Source: Pseudoalteromonas shioyasakiensis (GTDB lineage: Bacteria; Pseudomonadota; Gammaproteobacteria; Enterobacterales; Alteromonadaceae). Taken from it: 64,000 nucleotides of DNA. The position numbers and the translations under genes are program-made. Shown one piece after another: positions 2,810-19,271 of the stretch. Every line of letters starts with the position of its first letter. Position 1 is the stretch's first letter. The DNA is taken from NCBI GenBank assembly GCA_013391845.1, contig CP058414.1:2714501-2778500 (forward strand). The letters are read 5' to 3'. The notes beneath the pieces are model-generated. The model did not search any database and was not told the origin of the DNA. It was given only the letters and a program-made list of their open reading frames with translations.

Positions 2810-5089
2810 TTACAGCTCCCCAGGAGCGAAGTTATCCACAGCTATCGCTTTTTTGCGCAGCTCATTGGCTTTGTTCATTCGCTCAGCAACGGTTTCGTTA
2901 ATCAAGTTTTTCTCTGCCGCTACGACTATTGCATCCTCAAGTTCAAGGTTTTTAGCAATAGTGCCTTCTTTTTGCCATTTACGAAGCTGCTTAAAGTCAT
3001 CGTGGGTATCAATCATGGCTAGAAAGGCATTTTCCATCACCCCTGTGCCGGCATTTTCATCAACATAACAAAGGTGAGTTAATCTGTCTCTGAAGACACC
3101 TGGCTTGCTCATGTGCTCACACATAGTTTGTGCTAACTCGTCACTTGGGCGGTGATAATGATTACCTACCGGGAACACAATGCGTTTCAGTAAGAAATTA
3201 ATTACAGGATTAGAGAAGTTTTTAAAGAAACCATCGAATGCCTGACCTATGCAAAATAACGAATGCTCAACAGCATATTGTACAAATGATAAATCAGCTT
3301 GTTGACGGCCTTCATCTTCGTAGCGTTTCAGTACACATGAAGCTAAATATAAGTGACTAAGCACATCACCTAGGCGCGCCGAAATCATCTCTTTACGTTT
3401 TAACTCACCGCCTAAAACCAGCATAGCAACATCAGTACAAAACGCTAAGCCACGACTCATGCGGCTTAATTGTTTGTAATACACAGCTGTTGCACCAGAT
3501 ACCGGCGCTTTTGCGAAGTAACTACGTGTTAACCCGTGTACAAACGCCATGCCTGCATTGCTACCAGCAAACAAAATATGTTGCAGTAGTAATGAGTCAA
3601 ACTCTTTTAAAGCAACATCATGATCTTCCATTGCAGCCGCTTCCATTTCTTTAAGAACAAAAGGATGGCAACGCGTAGCACCTTGACCAAAAATCATCAA
3701 ATTACGAGTGAGAATGTTTGCACCTTCTACAGTAATCGACACAGGGATCCCCATATAGCCATGAGCTAAATAGTTATTTGGGCCCACTTGGATCCCTTTA
3801 CCTGAGTGAATATCCATAGCGTCATTCATAACAGTACGACCCATTTCTGTCATATGATATTTTGCAATTGCAGTAACCACAGACGGACTCAACTTCATAT
3901 CAATCGCGCCTGCAGTCATTAGTCTTGCAGACTCTAAGGTGTAAGTTAAACCACCTATGCGCGCAAGAGCCTCTTGCACTCCTTCGAATTGTCCAATTGA
4001 AACACCAAATTGTTGACGCACAGTTGCATAGGCTGATGTCATTCTTGAAGCCAAATGGCCTGTTGCTGTACTAAGCGCAGGTAACGAAATACCTCGGCCT
4101 GCACTTAAACACTCAACTAACATGCGCCAACCTCTACCTGCGCCTTTTTCGCCACCAATGATCCAATCAAGTGGAATAAACACATCTTTACCGTAAGTTG
4201 TGCCATTCATAAATGCCATATTCAACGGGTAATGACGCTCACCTGTCTGTACACCTTCGTGATCAGTAGGAATTAGCGCACATGTAATGCCAAGCTCTGT
4301 TTTATCACCTAATAAGCCGTCAGGATCGTACATTTTAAATGCAAGACCCAGCACTGTAGCAATTGGTGCAAGAGTGATATAGCGTTTTGACCAGTTAAGT
4401 TTTAAGCCAATCACTTCTTCACCGTTATGCATGCCCTTACAAACTACACCAGTATCTGGAATACTACCCGCATCAGAACCCGCCTCAGGGCCCGTTAAAG
4501 CAAAACAAGGCACATCATCACCTTTCGCTAGGCTTGGTAACCAACGCTCTTGTTGCTCGGTAGTACCATAATGAAGCAGTAATTCGCCTGGGCCTAAGCT
4601 ATTTGGCACCATGACGGTGACCGCAGCGGTTAAGCTCTTAGTGGCAATTTTCGATACGATGGTTGAATTAGCTATGGCTGAAAACTCACGGCCACCAAAT
4701 TTTTCAGGAATAATTAACGCAAAGAAACCTTCTTTTTTTAGGTAGTCCCACACTTCTTTTGGTAGGTCTTTATCTTTTTGCACGATTTGATAGTCATCAA
4801 GCATAGCTAACAAGGTTTCGACTTGCTCGCTCATAAATGCGCGTTCTTTTTCGCTAAGTTCGGGTTTAGGGAAACGATGCAGCTTTTGCCAATCAGGGTT
4901 ACCGCTGAATAATTCACCATCCCACCAAACATCACCTGCTTCCATGGCTTCACGCTCTGTTTGCGATAATGGCGGCAAAACTTTTTTAAACATACTAAAC
5001 GTAGGTCGTGTAACAAGATTGATGCGAATGTCTTTCACAGCAAAAATTACAATCACAGCAACTAGTAACAGAATAATTACGGTCGTCAT
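2810..5089 (-). CDS. fadE: FadE-type acyl-CoA dehydrogenase (759 aa)
   Basis: This protein belongs to the large FadE acyl-CoA dehydrogenases that carry out the first, FAD-dependent step of fatty-acid beta-oxidation. One N-terminal membrane segment (about residues 3-18) is followed by the family block VWWDGELFSGNPDW, the flavin-binding segment [27 protein letters not shown], and the C-terminal [20 protein letters not shown]. It is shorter than E. coli FadE (814 aa) because it has a reduced membrane segment at the N-terminus. A second, 818-residue paralogue lies about 33 kb away in this window on the other strand, so the two probably differ in substrate or regulation. No FadR-like site is seen in its 168-base upstream region, unlike the paralogue. 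The gene is monocistronic with its own terminator. Substrate chain length cannot be inferred. Confidence 0.93.
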   Translation of the reverse strand: MTTVIILLLVAVIVIFAVKDIRINLVTRPTFSMFKKVLPPLSQTEREAMEAGDVWWDGELFSGNPDWQKLHRFPKPELSEKERAFMSEQVETLLAMLDDYQIVQKDKDLPKEVWDYLKKEGFFALIIPEKFGGREFSAIANSTIVSKIATKSLTAAVTVMVPNSLGPGELLLHYGTTEQQERWLPSLAKGDDVPCFALTGPEAGSDAGSIPDTGVVCKGMHNGEEVIGLKLNWSKRYITLAPIATVLGLAFKMYDPDGLLGDKTELGITCALIPTDHEGVQTGERHYPLNMAFMNGTTYGKDVFIPLDWIIGGEKGAGRGWRMLVECLSAGRGISLPALSTATGHLASRMTSAYATVRQQFGVSIGQFEGVQEALARIGGLTYTLESARLMTAGAIDMKLSPSVVTAIAKYHMTEMGRTVMNDAMDIHSGKGIQVGPNNYLAHGYMGIPVSITVEGANILTRNLMIFGQGATRCHPFVLKEMEAAAMEDHDVALKEFDSLLLQHILFAGSNAGMAFVHGLTRSYFAKAPVSGATAVYYKQLSRMSRGLAFCTDVAMLVLGGELKRKEMISARLGDVLSHLYLASCVLKRYEDEGRQQADLSFVQYAVEHSLFCIGQAFDGFFKNFSNPVINFLLKRIVFPVGNHYHRPSDELAQTMCEHMSKPGVFRDRLTHLCYVDENAGTGVMENAFLAMIDTHDDFKQLRKWQKEGTIAKNLELEDAIVVAAEKNLINETVAERMNKANELRKKAIAVDNFAPGEL

Positions 5090-17221: not shown

Positions 17222-17716
17222 CTACCTTGATAACAACAGTGAATCGTCAATACAGTGAAATTCAGCTGCGGCTTGCTTTAAAATATCGGCAGTGAGGTGC
17301 TCTGCCCCATAGACATCACACGGTAGCTGATACTTATTCGCTAAATGGCCAAGCAATAACGCAAAATCTCCATCACCCGAAAGTAATACCATTTTATCGA
17401 GCTGCTTGGCATGCTCTAGCATATCAATGGTAATGCCAACATCCCAATCCCCTTTCGCACTACCATCTCTGCGCTGAATAAAAGGTTTCAGTTTTACCTC
17501 AAAGCCAATTGCGCGCAGAATATTTTGAAACTGCGATTGCTTTTCATCACCACGATAAATTGCATACGCAATGGCGCAATCAATTTCATAGCGTTCGCTC
17601 ATCTGTGCCCAAAAGGCATTATAATCAAAGTTTTTCTTGTAGCTTTCTTTACAGGTGTAATAAATATTTTGTACATCTACAAAGATACCGACTCTTGGCT
17701 TATCAACTGCTGACAT
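17222..17716 (-). CDS. NYN-domain (LabA/DUF88) putative ribonuclease
   Basis: A 164-residue cytoplasmic protein consisting of one NYN domain. The PIN-like acidic residues are visible at the N-terminus (VGIFVDVQNIYYT), in the middle (KGDWDVGITIDML) and in the C-terminal half (VLLSGDGDFALLLGHL). NYN domains are predicted metal-dependent ribonucleases with a PIN fold; LabA homologues have been linked to output regulation, but the RNA target is not known. It is divergent from the satD-like gene across 155 bases that contain three palindromes, so it may share that control. It is not obviously linked with the nag genes further on, from which 372 bases separate it. Confidence 0.85.
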   Translation of the reverse strand: MSAVDKPRVGIFVDVQNIYYTCKESYKKNFDYNAFWAQMSERYEIDCAIAYAIYRGDEKQSQFQNILRAIGFEVKLKPFIQRRDGSAKGDWDVGITIDMLEHAKQLDKMVLLSGDGDFALLLGHLANKYQLPCDVYGAEHLTADILKQAAAEFHCIDDSLLLSR

Positions 17717-17779
17717 AATTTTTCTGTTTTTAGTGATTTGTGTTCACTGTAGCATATCTAGGTTGATATTTACGAAAAA

Positions 17780-17853
17780 GTAACCTAAATTGGTTACATA
17801 AAACAAAGTAACCAAATTTGGTTACTTAACGCGATGTAACTAAATTAAGTTAC
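17780..17853 (+). promoter_or_regulatory. Three 18-bp palindromic operators with 28-bp spacing
   Basis: Boxes at 17780-17797 (GTAACCTAAATTGGTTAC), 17808-17825 (GTAACCAAATTTGGTTAC, a perfect palindrome) and 17836-17853 (GTAACTAAATTAAGTTAC) all have GTAAC and GTTAC arms. Their centres are exactly 28 bases apart. They fill most of the intergenic region between the NYN gene and the satD-like gene, with the last box ending 18 bases before the satD ATG. Confidence 0.88.
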
Positions 17854-17871: not shown

Positions 17872-18489
17872 ATGATTGCGGTGATCAGCGGTGATTTAAT
17901 TAAATCACAAAAAATTCCACAACAAGAATACGATGCCATGCTGTATCAGCTTGATCAAAGCTTACGCTTTGTTGCTAAGCGCTTTAATGCAAGTTTTAGC
18001 ATATATCGTGGCGATGCATTGCAAATACAGTTAACAGAGCCAGAGCAGGTCTGTCATGCTGCAATTTTGTTGTATTTGCAAATGAAAGCATCCAATTACG
18101 AACTGCGACAAAGTTTGGCTATTGGCTCACTCGATAACTCCCGTGCCGATATAAAAACAGCCACAGGCAGCGCCTATACTCTATCTGGCCGGGGGTTAGA
18201 TAATATGGGCCATCAACGGCTCACTTTACAAATAGACAATCAACCCCTTGAAGAGGGTTTTTTACTCAATATTGAACTAATAGAAGTATTACTTGAAAAA
18301 ATGAGTCAAAAACAAGCAAATGCATTGTTTTATTATTTAACAGCAGAACACAACAACCATGCCGAACTTGCTAAAGAACTCGCAACAAGCCGAGCCAATG
18401 TCACAAAGCTATTAAATTTGGCTCACTACCAATTAATTGAACGTTTTATACAGTACAGCCAAACCACACTCAAAGGAATGACAAAATGA
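17872..18489 (+). CDS. SatD-family protein with C-terminal helix-turn-helix
   Basis: A 205-residue protein. The N-terminus MIAVISGDLIKSQ, the middle FSIYRGDALQIQL and TGSAYTLSGRGLD fit the SatD family (Pfam SatD), named from a Streptococcus operon and without a firmly known activity. The C-terminal 50 residues (HNNHAELAKELATSRANVTKLLNLAHYQLIERF) form a helix-turn-helix like those in DNA-binding regulators. It overlaps the next gene by four bases (ATGA) and is therefore coupled to it. Three GTAAC/GTTAC palindromes lie immediately upstream, which suggests the protein controls its own promoter; this is inference. The N-terminal domain could be a sensor or nucleotide-binding module. Confidence 0.75.
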   Translation: MIAVISGDLIKSQKIPQQEYDAMLYQLDQSLRFVAKRFNASFSIYRGDALQIQLTEPEQVCHAAILLYLQMKASNYELRQSLAIGSLDNSRADIKTATGSAYTLSGRGLDNMGHQRLTLQIDNQPLEEGFLLNIELIEVLLEKMSQKQANALFYYLTAEHNNHAELAKELATSRANVTKLLNLAHYQLIERFIQYSQTTLKGMTK

Positions 18490-19232
18490 GTTTTTCATTA
18501 CTTATCGTAAGCTTAATTTTAGCGCATTCAATTGCCGACTTTTACTGGCAACCTATGAGCTGGGTACATGACAGAAATACGCGCCACTTTCGTGCCAGTA
18601 AACTTTACTTGCACGTGCTCATCCACGGTGCTAGCTCATTTTTGGTACTATTATTTTGGGAGTTTAATTATGGCTGGCAAGCGCTTTCAAACGTCGTTAT
18701 CGCCACGGCAGTGATTATGGTTACACACTATCTAATCGACCTTGCTAAATCTTACTCAAGTAAAGGTGTGGTTCCTTTTATTGTTGACCAACTTGCACAT
18801 TTAGTTATCTTGTTCTTACTGGCTATATGGTTAAGCGAAAACGATGAGTTTTTTACACATAGCTGGCAATGGCTAATGCAACCGGCAACATTATGGGTGC
18901 TGTGTGGCTATTTATTAATTTTAAATCCAACAGCGGTGTTTATTAGAATGATGTTAGAGCGGATCACATCTGGCTTTAGCGCCACGGGCAGTTTACCAGC
19001 GGCGGGGCAAAGTATCGGCATGCTTGAGCGGGTATTGATGCTAACATTTATCTTACTGGACCAATTTTCAGGCGTTGGCTTTTTACTTGCGGCAAAATCC
19101 GTATTCCGCTTTGGTGATTTAAGTGCCAGTAGAGATAAAAAACTGACTGAATACGTTATGCTCGGTACCTTACTCAGTGTCAGCGTGACTTTATTTATTG
19201 GTTTAGCTGTTAATTACCTTAAAGCCGTGTGA
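18486..19232 (+). CDS. DUF3307 integral membrane protein
   Basis: A 248-residue membrane protein with about seven hydrophobic segments. The N-terminal LILAHSIADFYWQPMSWVHDRN and the following LHVLIHG and THYLIDLAKSY are the histidine/aspartate-bearing motifs of DUF3307 proteins. No function has been shown for the family. The start overlaps the end of the SatD-like gene, and this two-gene arrangement (SatD-like regulator plus DUF3307) recurs in other bacteria as far as I recall. Conserved His and Asp residues near membrane faces could be catalytic, but that is speculation. A terminator follows the gene. Confidence 0.8.
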   Translation: MSFSLLIVSLILAHSIADFYWQPMSWVHDRNTRHFRASKLYLHVLIHGASSFLVLLFWEFNYGWQALSNVVIATAVIMVTHYLIDLAKSYSSKGVVPFIVDQLAHLVILFLLAIWLSENDEFFTHSWQWLMQPATLWVLCGYLLILNPTAVFIRMMLERITSGFSATGSLPAAGQSIGMLERVLMLTFILLDQFSGVGFLLAAKSVFRFGDLSASRDKKLTEYVMLGTLLSVSVTLFIGLAVNYLKAV

Positions 19233-19246
19233 CTTTGCAGACCCAT

Positions 19247-19271
19247 AAAAAAACGCGCCAACACAGGCGCG
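19247..19271. terminator. Terminator between DUF3307 and rhlE
   Basis: GCGCC and GGCGC with one more C-G pair around AACACA form the stem. On the minus strand seven T follow, so it mainly ends rhlE; on the plus strand it is followed by CTTTATATT, a weaker tail for the convergent gene. Confidence 0.8.

Follow-up and report, generated by a model that had tools for sequence, protein, structure and literature searches.

Introduction

Which protein reads three evenly spaced palindromes in front of a SatD-like gene and its membrane partner in Pseudoalteromonas shioyasakiensis, and what would its binding control? The question arose from a sequence-only reading of a 64,000-nucleotide stretch of this genome (the window), which took the palindromes for the operators of a self-regulated two-gene module and the SatD-like protein for their binder. 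The SatD family (PF16264) takes its name from satD in the sat operon of Streptococcus mutans, and a Streptococcus suis table enters satD as "DNA-binding protein". In the excerpts of this literature consulted, streptococcal satD receives passing mentions, in the context of acid tolerance or in gene lists, and these passages contain neither an operator array nor a cyclase-like domain. The little-studied satD-DUF3307 pair now gains a testable role, with a cyclase-fold regulator, a partly readable recognition code, an operator array of its own and a membrane partner.

Results

Three palindromes, each of 18 bp, lie in the gap between the start of a NYN-domain gene (17716, minus strand) and that of the SatD-like gene (17872). 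Both their starts and their centres are exactly 28 bp apart. One of nine base pairs is missed in box 1 and one in box 3, and none in box 2 (Table 1). A single box is unexceptional: allowing up to two mismatches, the window holds 38 sites against a shuffle mean of 29.5, which is no enrichment. The exact GTAAC-N8-GTTAC sequence occurs at 10 sites genome-wide, 3 of them in this gap, and the two-box pattern at the 28-bp step occurs with no mismatch only here, as two overlapping pairs; two other places in the genome match with three mismatches each. The array was thus confirmed at the positions first read for it, and so was the four-base overlap of the SatD-like stop with the DUF3307 start.

Table 1. 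Features of the satD-DUF3307 region; positions are those of the window.
Feature	Positions	Strand	Basis or remark
Divergent NYN-domain gene	17222..17716	-	PF01936, 135.5 bits
-35 hexamer TTGATA, probable satD promoter	17763..17768	+	Consensus scan; TTG at conserved offset in 26/26 close Pseudoalteromonas rows
Operator box 1, GTAACCTAAATTGGTTAC	17780..17797	.	Inner six bases 17786-17791, TAAATT, probable -10
Operator box 2, GTAACCAAATTTGGTTAC, perfect 18-bp palindrome	17808..17825	.	Array recurs in relatives
Operator box 3, GTAACTAAATTAAGTTAC	17836..17853	.	Array recurs in relatives
SatD-like regulator, 205 aa; class III cyclase-like palm (about residues 1-121) and C-terminal HTH	17872..18489	+	Open reading frame, PDB profile, model, fold matches
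Recognition-helix codons, residues 174-183	18391..18420	+	Modelled helix; half-site bases change together with residues 174, 175, 176 and 179
DUF3307 membrane protein, 248 aa, translationally coupled to satD	18486..19232	+	PF11750, 101.4 bits against a cut-off of 23
Terminator-like stem-loop 3' of DUF3307	19254..19271	+	Consensus scan

The SatD-like protein shares N-terminal motifs with the SatD family and scores 18.3 bits against PF16264, below the gathering cut-off of 29, so that "SatD-like" is its correct name. Some relatives exceed the cut-off, and 20 of 35 match the family at E up to 1. As had been supposed, the protein carries a C-terminal helix-turn-helix (HTH) of its own: a confident structural model (pLDDT 94.2) places a helix, H174-183, in this domain, and many of the 35 relatives match HTH families weakly. 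Together these give it the DNA-binding domain expected of an autoregulator.

Its N-terminal class III cyclase-like palm is new. A PDB profile of a class III cyclase matches at E=2e-6, with D8 and D48 aligned to the cyclase motifs, so that both the palm fold and the two metal-binding aspartates of this class are found. The aspartates are invariant in 95 of 95 sequences and in 35 of 35. Residues 103 and 107, which were placed by eye at the catalytic, transition-state Asn and Arg of the cyclases (the profile alignment ends at residue 100), vary, and cyclase activity is therefore doubtful. The class III nucleotidyl cyclases Ma1120 and Rv1900c have the palm and both aspartates in common with the SatD-like protein, which differs from them in being shorter, in its fusion to an HTH and in these variable, presumably catalytic positions. 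Cyclase-HTH proteins such as Rv0386 likewise unite a cyclase-related domain and an HTH in one chain; they are much longer and have an ATPase domain and an HTH of the LuxR type. One SatD-like palm (L172, on contig C38 of genome G118) has no recognisable HTH and no array, and the DUF3307 gene of that genome, one of the 53 with both genes mentioned below, lies on a different contig.

The DUF3307 protein of the window exceeds the PF11750 gathering cut-off. In 119 of 121 satD loci a DUF3307 frame on the same strand lies just after, or overlaps, the end of satD, the start choices being rough; two loci have no adjoining DUF3307 (L077 and L088), and in two the frames are short or broken (L018 and L033). 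DUF3307 is present in 57 of 147 genomes of the family. From listings compared by eye, 53 of these genomes have both genes, one has SatD only (G070) and four have DUF3307 only (G006, G055, G090 and G142). A hidden SatD upstream of DUF3307 in these four was sought and none was found in the stretches examined, nor was an array.

Residues H14, D18, H43, H47, H81, D85, D101 and H105 of DUF3307 are invariant in 28 near relatives and kept in 99-107 of 119 loci, a His/Asp pattern that we presume to resemble a membrane metal site. The C-terminal residues G174, G178, E181, R182, K204, R208, Y223 and G227 are present in 116-118 of 119. The structural model is only fair (pLDDT 76.3, pTM 0.59) and Foldseek returned no fold relative at E 0.001 or better; we therefore read no function from the fold. 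DUF3307 has a phage relative, phrog_2470, and one SatD query sequence found no match in phage records. DUF3307 of L035 is 95% identical to the window protein and that of L036-L041 about 66%, whereas SatD identity remains near 90%, a pattern that looks like recombination inside the operon.

SatD-like genes were found by single-sequence search in 54 of 147 family, 49 of 295 order and 7 of 200 phylum genomes, samples that overlap one another. The Pfam SatD model matched 3 of 274 class genomes, again an overlapping sample, and the window genome was not among the three. Contigs searched for satD yielded 24 loci, of which 23 came from Pseudoalteromonas; a weak spirochaete match (L058) was dropped. 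With extra stretches added, the collection comprised 121 satD loci, among them the window itself as L005 and two, L006 and L044, that have sequence in common. From these loci 62 representatives were taken at 70% identity. Start codons were set by profile match, sometimes early, so that box-to-start distances are rough.

Our strict scan accepted two 18-mers if each had 5 or more of its 6 outer pairs and the two agreed in 10 or more of 12 outer letters, at steps of 19-45 and up to 350 bp upstream. A 28-bp pair was found in 27 of the 62 representatives and a 29-bp pair in 10, one or the other in 35; the remaining 27 failed the scan. The other 25 steps gave two matches, one of which (L075, 20 bp) lies inside a long array, and 20 rounds of shuffling gave one. 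Over all loci, 78 of 121 have a 28- or 29-bp pair upstream of satD. Control windows contained pairs in 2 of 248 cases after the satD start and in 1 of 182 further upstream, and on inspection these matches were real arrays, one belonging to L016 and two lying between satD and DUF3307 in L125 and L126. A more permissive assignment, registered in part by hand, recognised upstream arrays in 112 of 121 loci; by this assignment no array was seen in nine (L018, L033, L119-L123, L125 and L126).

Three boxes are usual (32 of 53 assigned representatives), two occur in 13, and expanded arrays upstream of satD reach 9 boxes in L070, 10 in L075 and 11 in L016. Among 55 loci with at least two boxes, the step is 28 bp in 37, 29 bp in 13 and mixed in 5. 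In L075, two types of box alternate at 29 bp. The sequence-only reading had proposed to look for the boxes upstream of other satD-DUF3307 pairs; that search bore it out, with arrays of the same pitch in most family and order relatives and in 10 of 19 loci from another class. On geometry it had offered independent dimers on different faces of the DNA or a wrapped assembly. The 28/29-bp pitch and the arrays of 9-11 boxes would fit a wrapped assembly, or contacts between neighbours, better than independent dimers.

Could the palindromes act as RNA, as leader hairpins or terminators? Two of the boxes do score as terminator-like on the minus strand. On that strand, however, they lie upstream of the NYN start and so cannot end the NYN transcript, and neither a fixed 28/29-bp pitch nor covariation with an HTH, described below, is expected of hairpins. 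We give this explanation hardly any weight. Service to the divergent NYN gene is equally implausible: the boxes do lie in the intergenic region that it shares with satD, but NYN, a neighbour of satD at the 26 loci of the close Pseudoalteromonas group, was not found in the 1.5-kb flanks of satD at any of the 27 more distant loci tested, the majority of which retain arrays. The NYN gene is probably outside the satD-DUF3307 module.

The array overlaps a likely promoter. A consensus scan, whose yield taken alone is close to chance (6 matches where 4.1 were expected), finds TTGATA-17-TAAATT (17763-17791), which sets the -10 element in the middle of box 1. Within the close group (L005-L007 and L035-L057; SatD 56-100% identical), the -10 lies inside box 1 at 26 of 26 loci, as TAAATT in 25 and TAGATT in one, and the offset of the TTG is constant. 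Two Pseudoalteromonas loci stand outside this count, namely L083, with TTAGC boxes, and L127 of Pseudoalteromonas piscicida, 38% identical, with GTAAC boxes at 28 bp. A conserved operator thus sits at the regulator's own promoter. A -10 element within box 1 implies autorepression; with boxes 2 and 3 downstream of the likely transcription start, filling of the array would repress the operon. We infer such repression for the close Pseudoalteromonas group only.

Two features invite a different reading, in which SatD binds and activates, or in which the array is a structural, centromere-like or filament site where boxes are counted, with no repression: some arrays run to 9-11 boxes, and a fixed promoter position relative to the array was not seen beyond the close group. 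Against it stand the -10 within box 1 at every one of the 26 close loci and the fact that arrays adjoin the operon's own genes. We regard it as unlikely.

If the SatD-like protein binds the boxes, its recognition helix should bear the imprint of their letters. Half-site letters do switch between lineages while the pitch is constant; the curated half-sites of 56 representatives include GTAAC, GTAAT, GCAAC/T/A/G, ACAAC/T, TTAGC, ATACG, ATAGC, GTGAT/C and GGAAC. Residue 174 agrees with base 1 in 56 of 56 (R with G in 45, Q with A in 8, A/I/V with T in 3). Q at residue 175 goes with C at base 2 in 19 of 19, and other residues go with T in 36 of 37. For residue 176 and base 4 the pairs are N-A (42), S-A (5), R-C (5), T-G (3) and S-G (1), and for residue 179 and base 5 they are K-C (21), R-C (7), E-G (7), N-T (5), N-C (4), T-A (3), A-A (2), Q-T (2) and five single pairs. 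By mutual information, residues 174, 176 and 179 come top for bases 1, 4 and 5, residue 175 ties with residue 79 for base 2, and bases 3 and 6 have no link to the helix.

A branch test used a tree built from residues 1-140, from which the HTH was excluded, and ranked 204 columns with an uncorrected p per column. For base 1 the top column was R174 (4 of 4 base changes, uncorrected p 2.6e-6), for base 2 A175 (2 of 2, p 9e-3), for base 4 N176 (3 of 3, p 1.9e-5) and for base 5 K179 (6 of 14, p 1.5e-3). All four residues fall within the modelled helix 174-183.

These values depend on the register in which half-sites are paired. Where the half-sites are odd in number, two pairings are possible, and for 22 of 112 loci the curated register was therefore chosen manually, with the HTH alignment already known. 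A naive automatic register deviated from the curated half-site in 7 of 86 loci (six off register or missed, one with a different base 5); with it the helix loses bases 1, 4 and 5 in the branch test, and V177, within the helix, tops base 2. A rule blind to the HTH gave the same half-site as curation at 83 of 86 loci. When it is restricted to the 72 unambiguous loci (39 representatives), base 1 is topped by R174 (p 5.6e-4) and base 5 by K179 (p 3.3e-4), columns 185/186 take base 4, and base 2, with a single change, is uninformative; the tables read R-G 31/31, Q-A 4/5, A/I/V-T 3/3, Q175-C 15/15 and others with T 24/24. On all 86 loci (43 representatives), R174 again wins base 1 (p 2e-3) and N176 is second for base 4. 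Under the HTH-blind rule, then, residues 175 and 176 win neither base 2 nor base 4, and 179 takes base 5 in one of the two sets.

Nineteen previously unused loci from an alphaproteobacterial-type family (class inferred from Rhodobacterales names; centre G774, 21 of 120 genomes at E 1e-20) were put through the strict scan with no hand work. The 10 loci with an array include nine at 28/29 bp; counted by step, 29 bp occurs in 9 loci, 28 in 2, 30 in 1 and the other 24 steps in none. At base 1, R goes with G in 8 of 8 and A with T in 1 of 1, as predicted, and one locus pairs P, a residue new to the set, with T. At base 2, Q goes with C in 9 of 9, and P175 pairs with A where T was expected. At base 5, K goes with C in 1 of 1, whereas Q179 pairs with G in five loci against the earlier Q-T. 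The code for bases 1 and 2 thus transfers to another class, and that for base 5 does so only in part.

Because the half-site letters follow residues of the SatD helix, the SatD-like protein is the most probable binder, and very probably itself occupies the array; its proposed part as operator-binding regulator gains support from this covariation. In the competing view the boxes are bound by a regulator whose gene lies elsewhere, and the SatD-like HTH serves other targets. In its favour, 4 of the 57 family genomes with DUF3307 yielded no SatD, but a foreign regulator would hardly make the letters track SatD's own helix, no array was seen in five DUF3307-only stretches or at the SatD-like gene lacking a recognisable HTH, and the window genome has no second exact array. 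We judge this view very improbable.

Arrays also occur inside the operon. The satD-DUF3307 junction carries one in L125, L126 and L131, and in L184 and L186 the junction has a second array besides the upstream one, with matching letters (GAAAG and GCAAG, respectively). Arrays immediately before DUF3307 suggest that DUF3307 is itself a target and hence a gene under control. The letters at L125, L126, L131 and L128 fit the code at base 2 in 4 of 4, at base 4 in 3 of 3, at base 1 in 1 of 2 testable cases and at base 5 in 2 of 3; the misfits are R174 with T1 in L131 and Q179 with G5 in L126. The Salinivibrio costicola plasmid L128 has two TTAGCC-type boxes 28 bp apart at 3879-3924, immediately downstream of DUF3307, with an S9 peptidase gene following them.

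Discussion

Array, pitch, covariation, fold and gene pairing are observations made in silico, and they strongly suggest that the SatD-like protein switches its own operon and, with it, its membrane partner. In the mechanism that we favour, the two recognition helices of a dimer would read both half-sites of each 18-bp box, residue 174 contacting base 1 and residue 175 base 2, with 176 and 179 probably at bases 4 and 5. Adjacent dimers would stand at a fixed pitch, 28 or 29 bp according to lineage, probably through mutual contacts, and such contacts would make filling of the array cooperative. As the palm keeps both metal aspartates, the likely signal is a nucleotide-metal complex that alters DNA binding; through it the signal would set the dose of DUF3307, the putative output of the module. 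We assign a probability of roughly 0.83 to this explanation, in which the array serves satD-DUF3307 as its operator and has the operon's own SatD-like protein as its cognate regulator.

Self-regulating one-component repressors combine an HTH protein, an operator at its own promoter and a co-transcribed target, and may have repeated operators. The satD-DUF3307 module has HTH, own-promoter operator and co-transcribed target in common with them; it differs in its cyclase-like sensor domain, in a 28/29-bp pitch that is constant despite changing letters and in arrays of up to 11 boxes. Pycsar and Panoptes/mCpol are antiphage systems in which the gene for a palm protein adjoins that for a membrane protein. 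The satD-DUF3307 module shares this pairing of a small palm protein with a membrane protein, whereas the HTH and the operator array set the SatD-like protein apart. PADLOC (2023 database) returned nothing for the SatD-like module beyond a weak HTH match.

The natural co-switches of half-site and recognition helix form a ready data set on binding specificity, and the fixed pitch, which at 28/29 bp does not correspond to an integral number of helical turns, raises a well-defined question of structure. A bolder scheme is a long shot: the palm would sense or make a nucleotide signal acting on DUF3307, and SatD would form a filament on DNA with a helical pitch of 28/29 bp, one protein serving as sensor, part of the messenger system and switch. 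If true, it would make satD-DUF3307 a widespread, undescribed membrane signalling or defence module.

The pair also travels on plasmids, 7 of 72,556 plasmid records matching SatD. Five records were opened, and DUF3307 adjoins satD in all four that have annotated genes. The Segatella copri record showed no boxes, and a Vibrio lentus plasmid has three TTAGCC boxes at 28 bp upstream of satD. On the Sphingomonas insulae plasmid L131 (NZ_CP048421.1, 1-5612), satD-DUF3307 lies beside an annotated Pycsar effector and cyclase, with a TIR-domain gene on the opposite side, a single case that hints at a defence neighbourhood.
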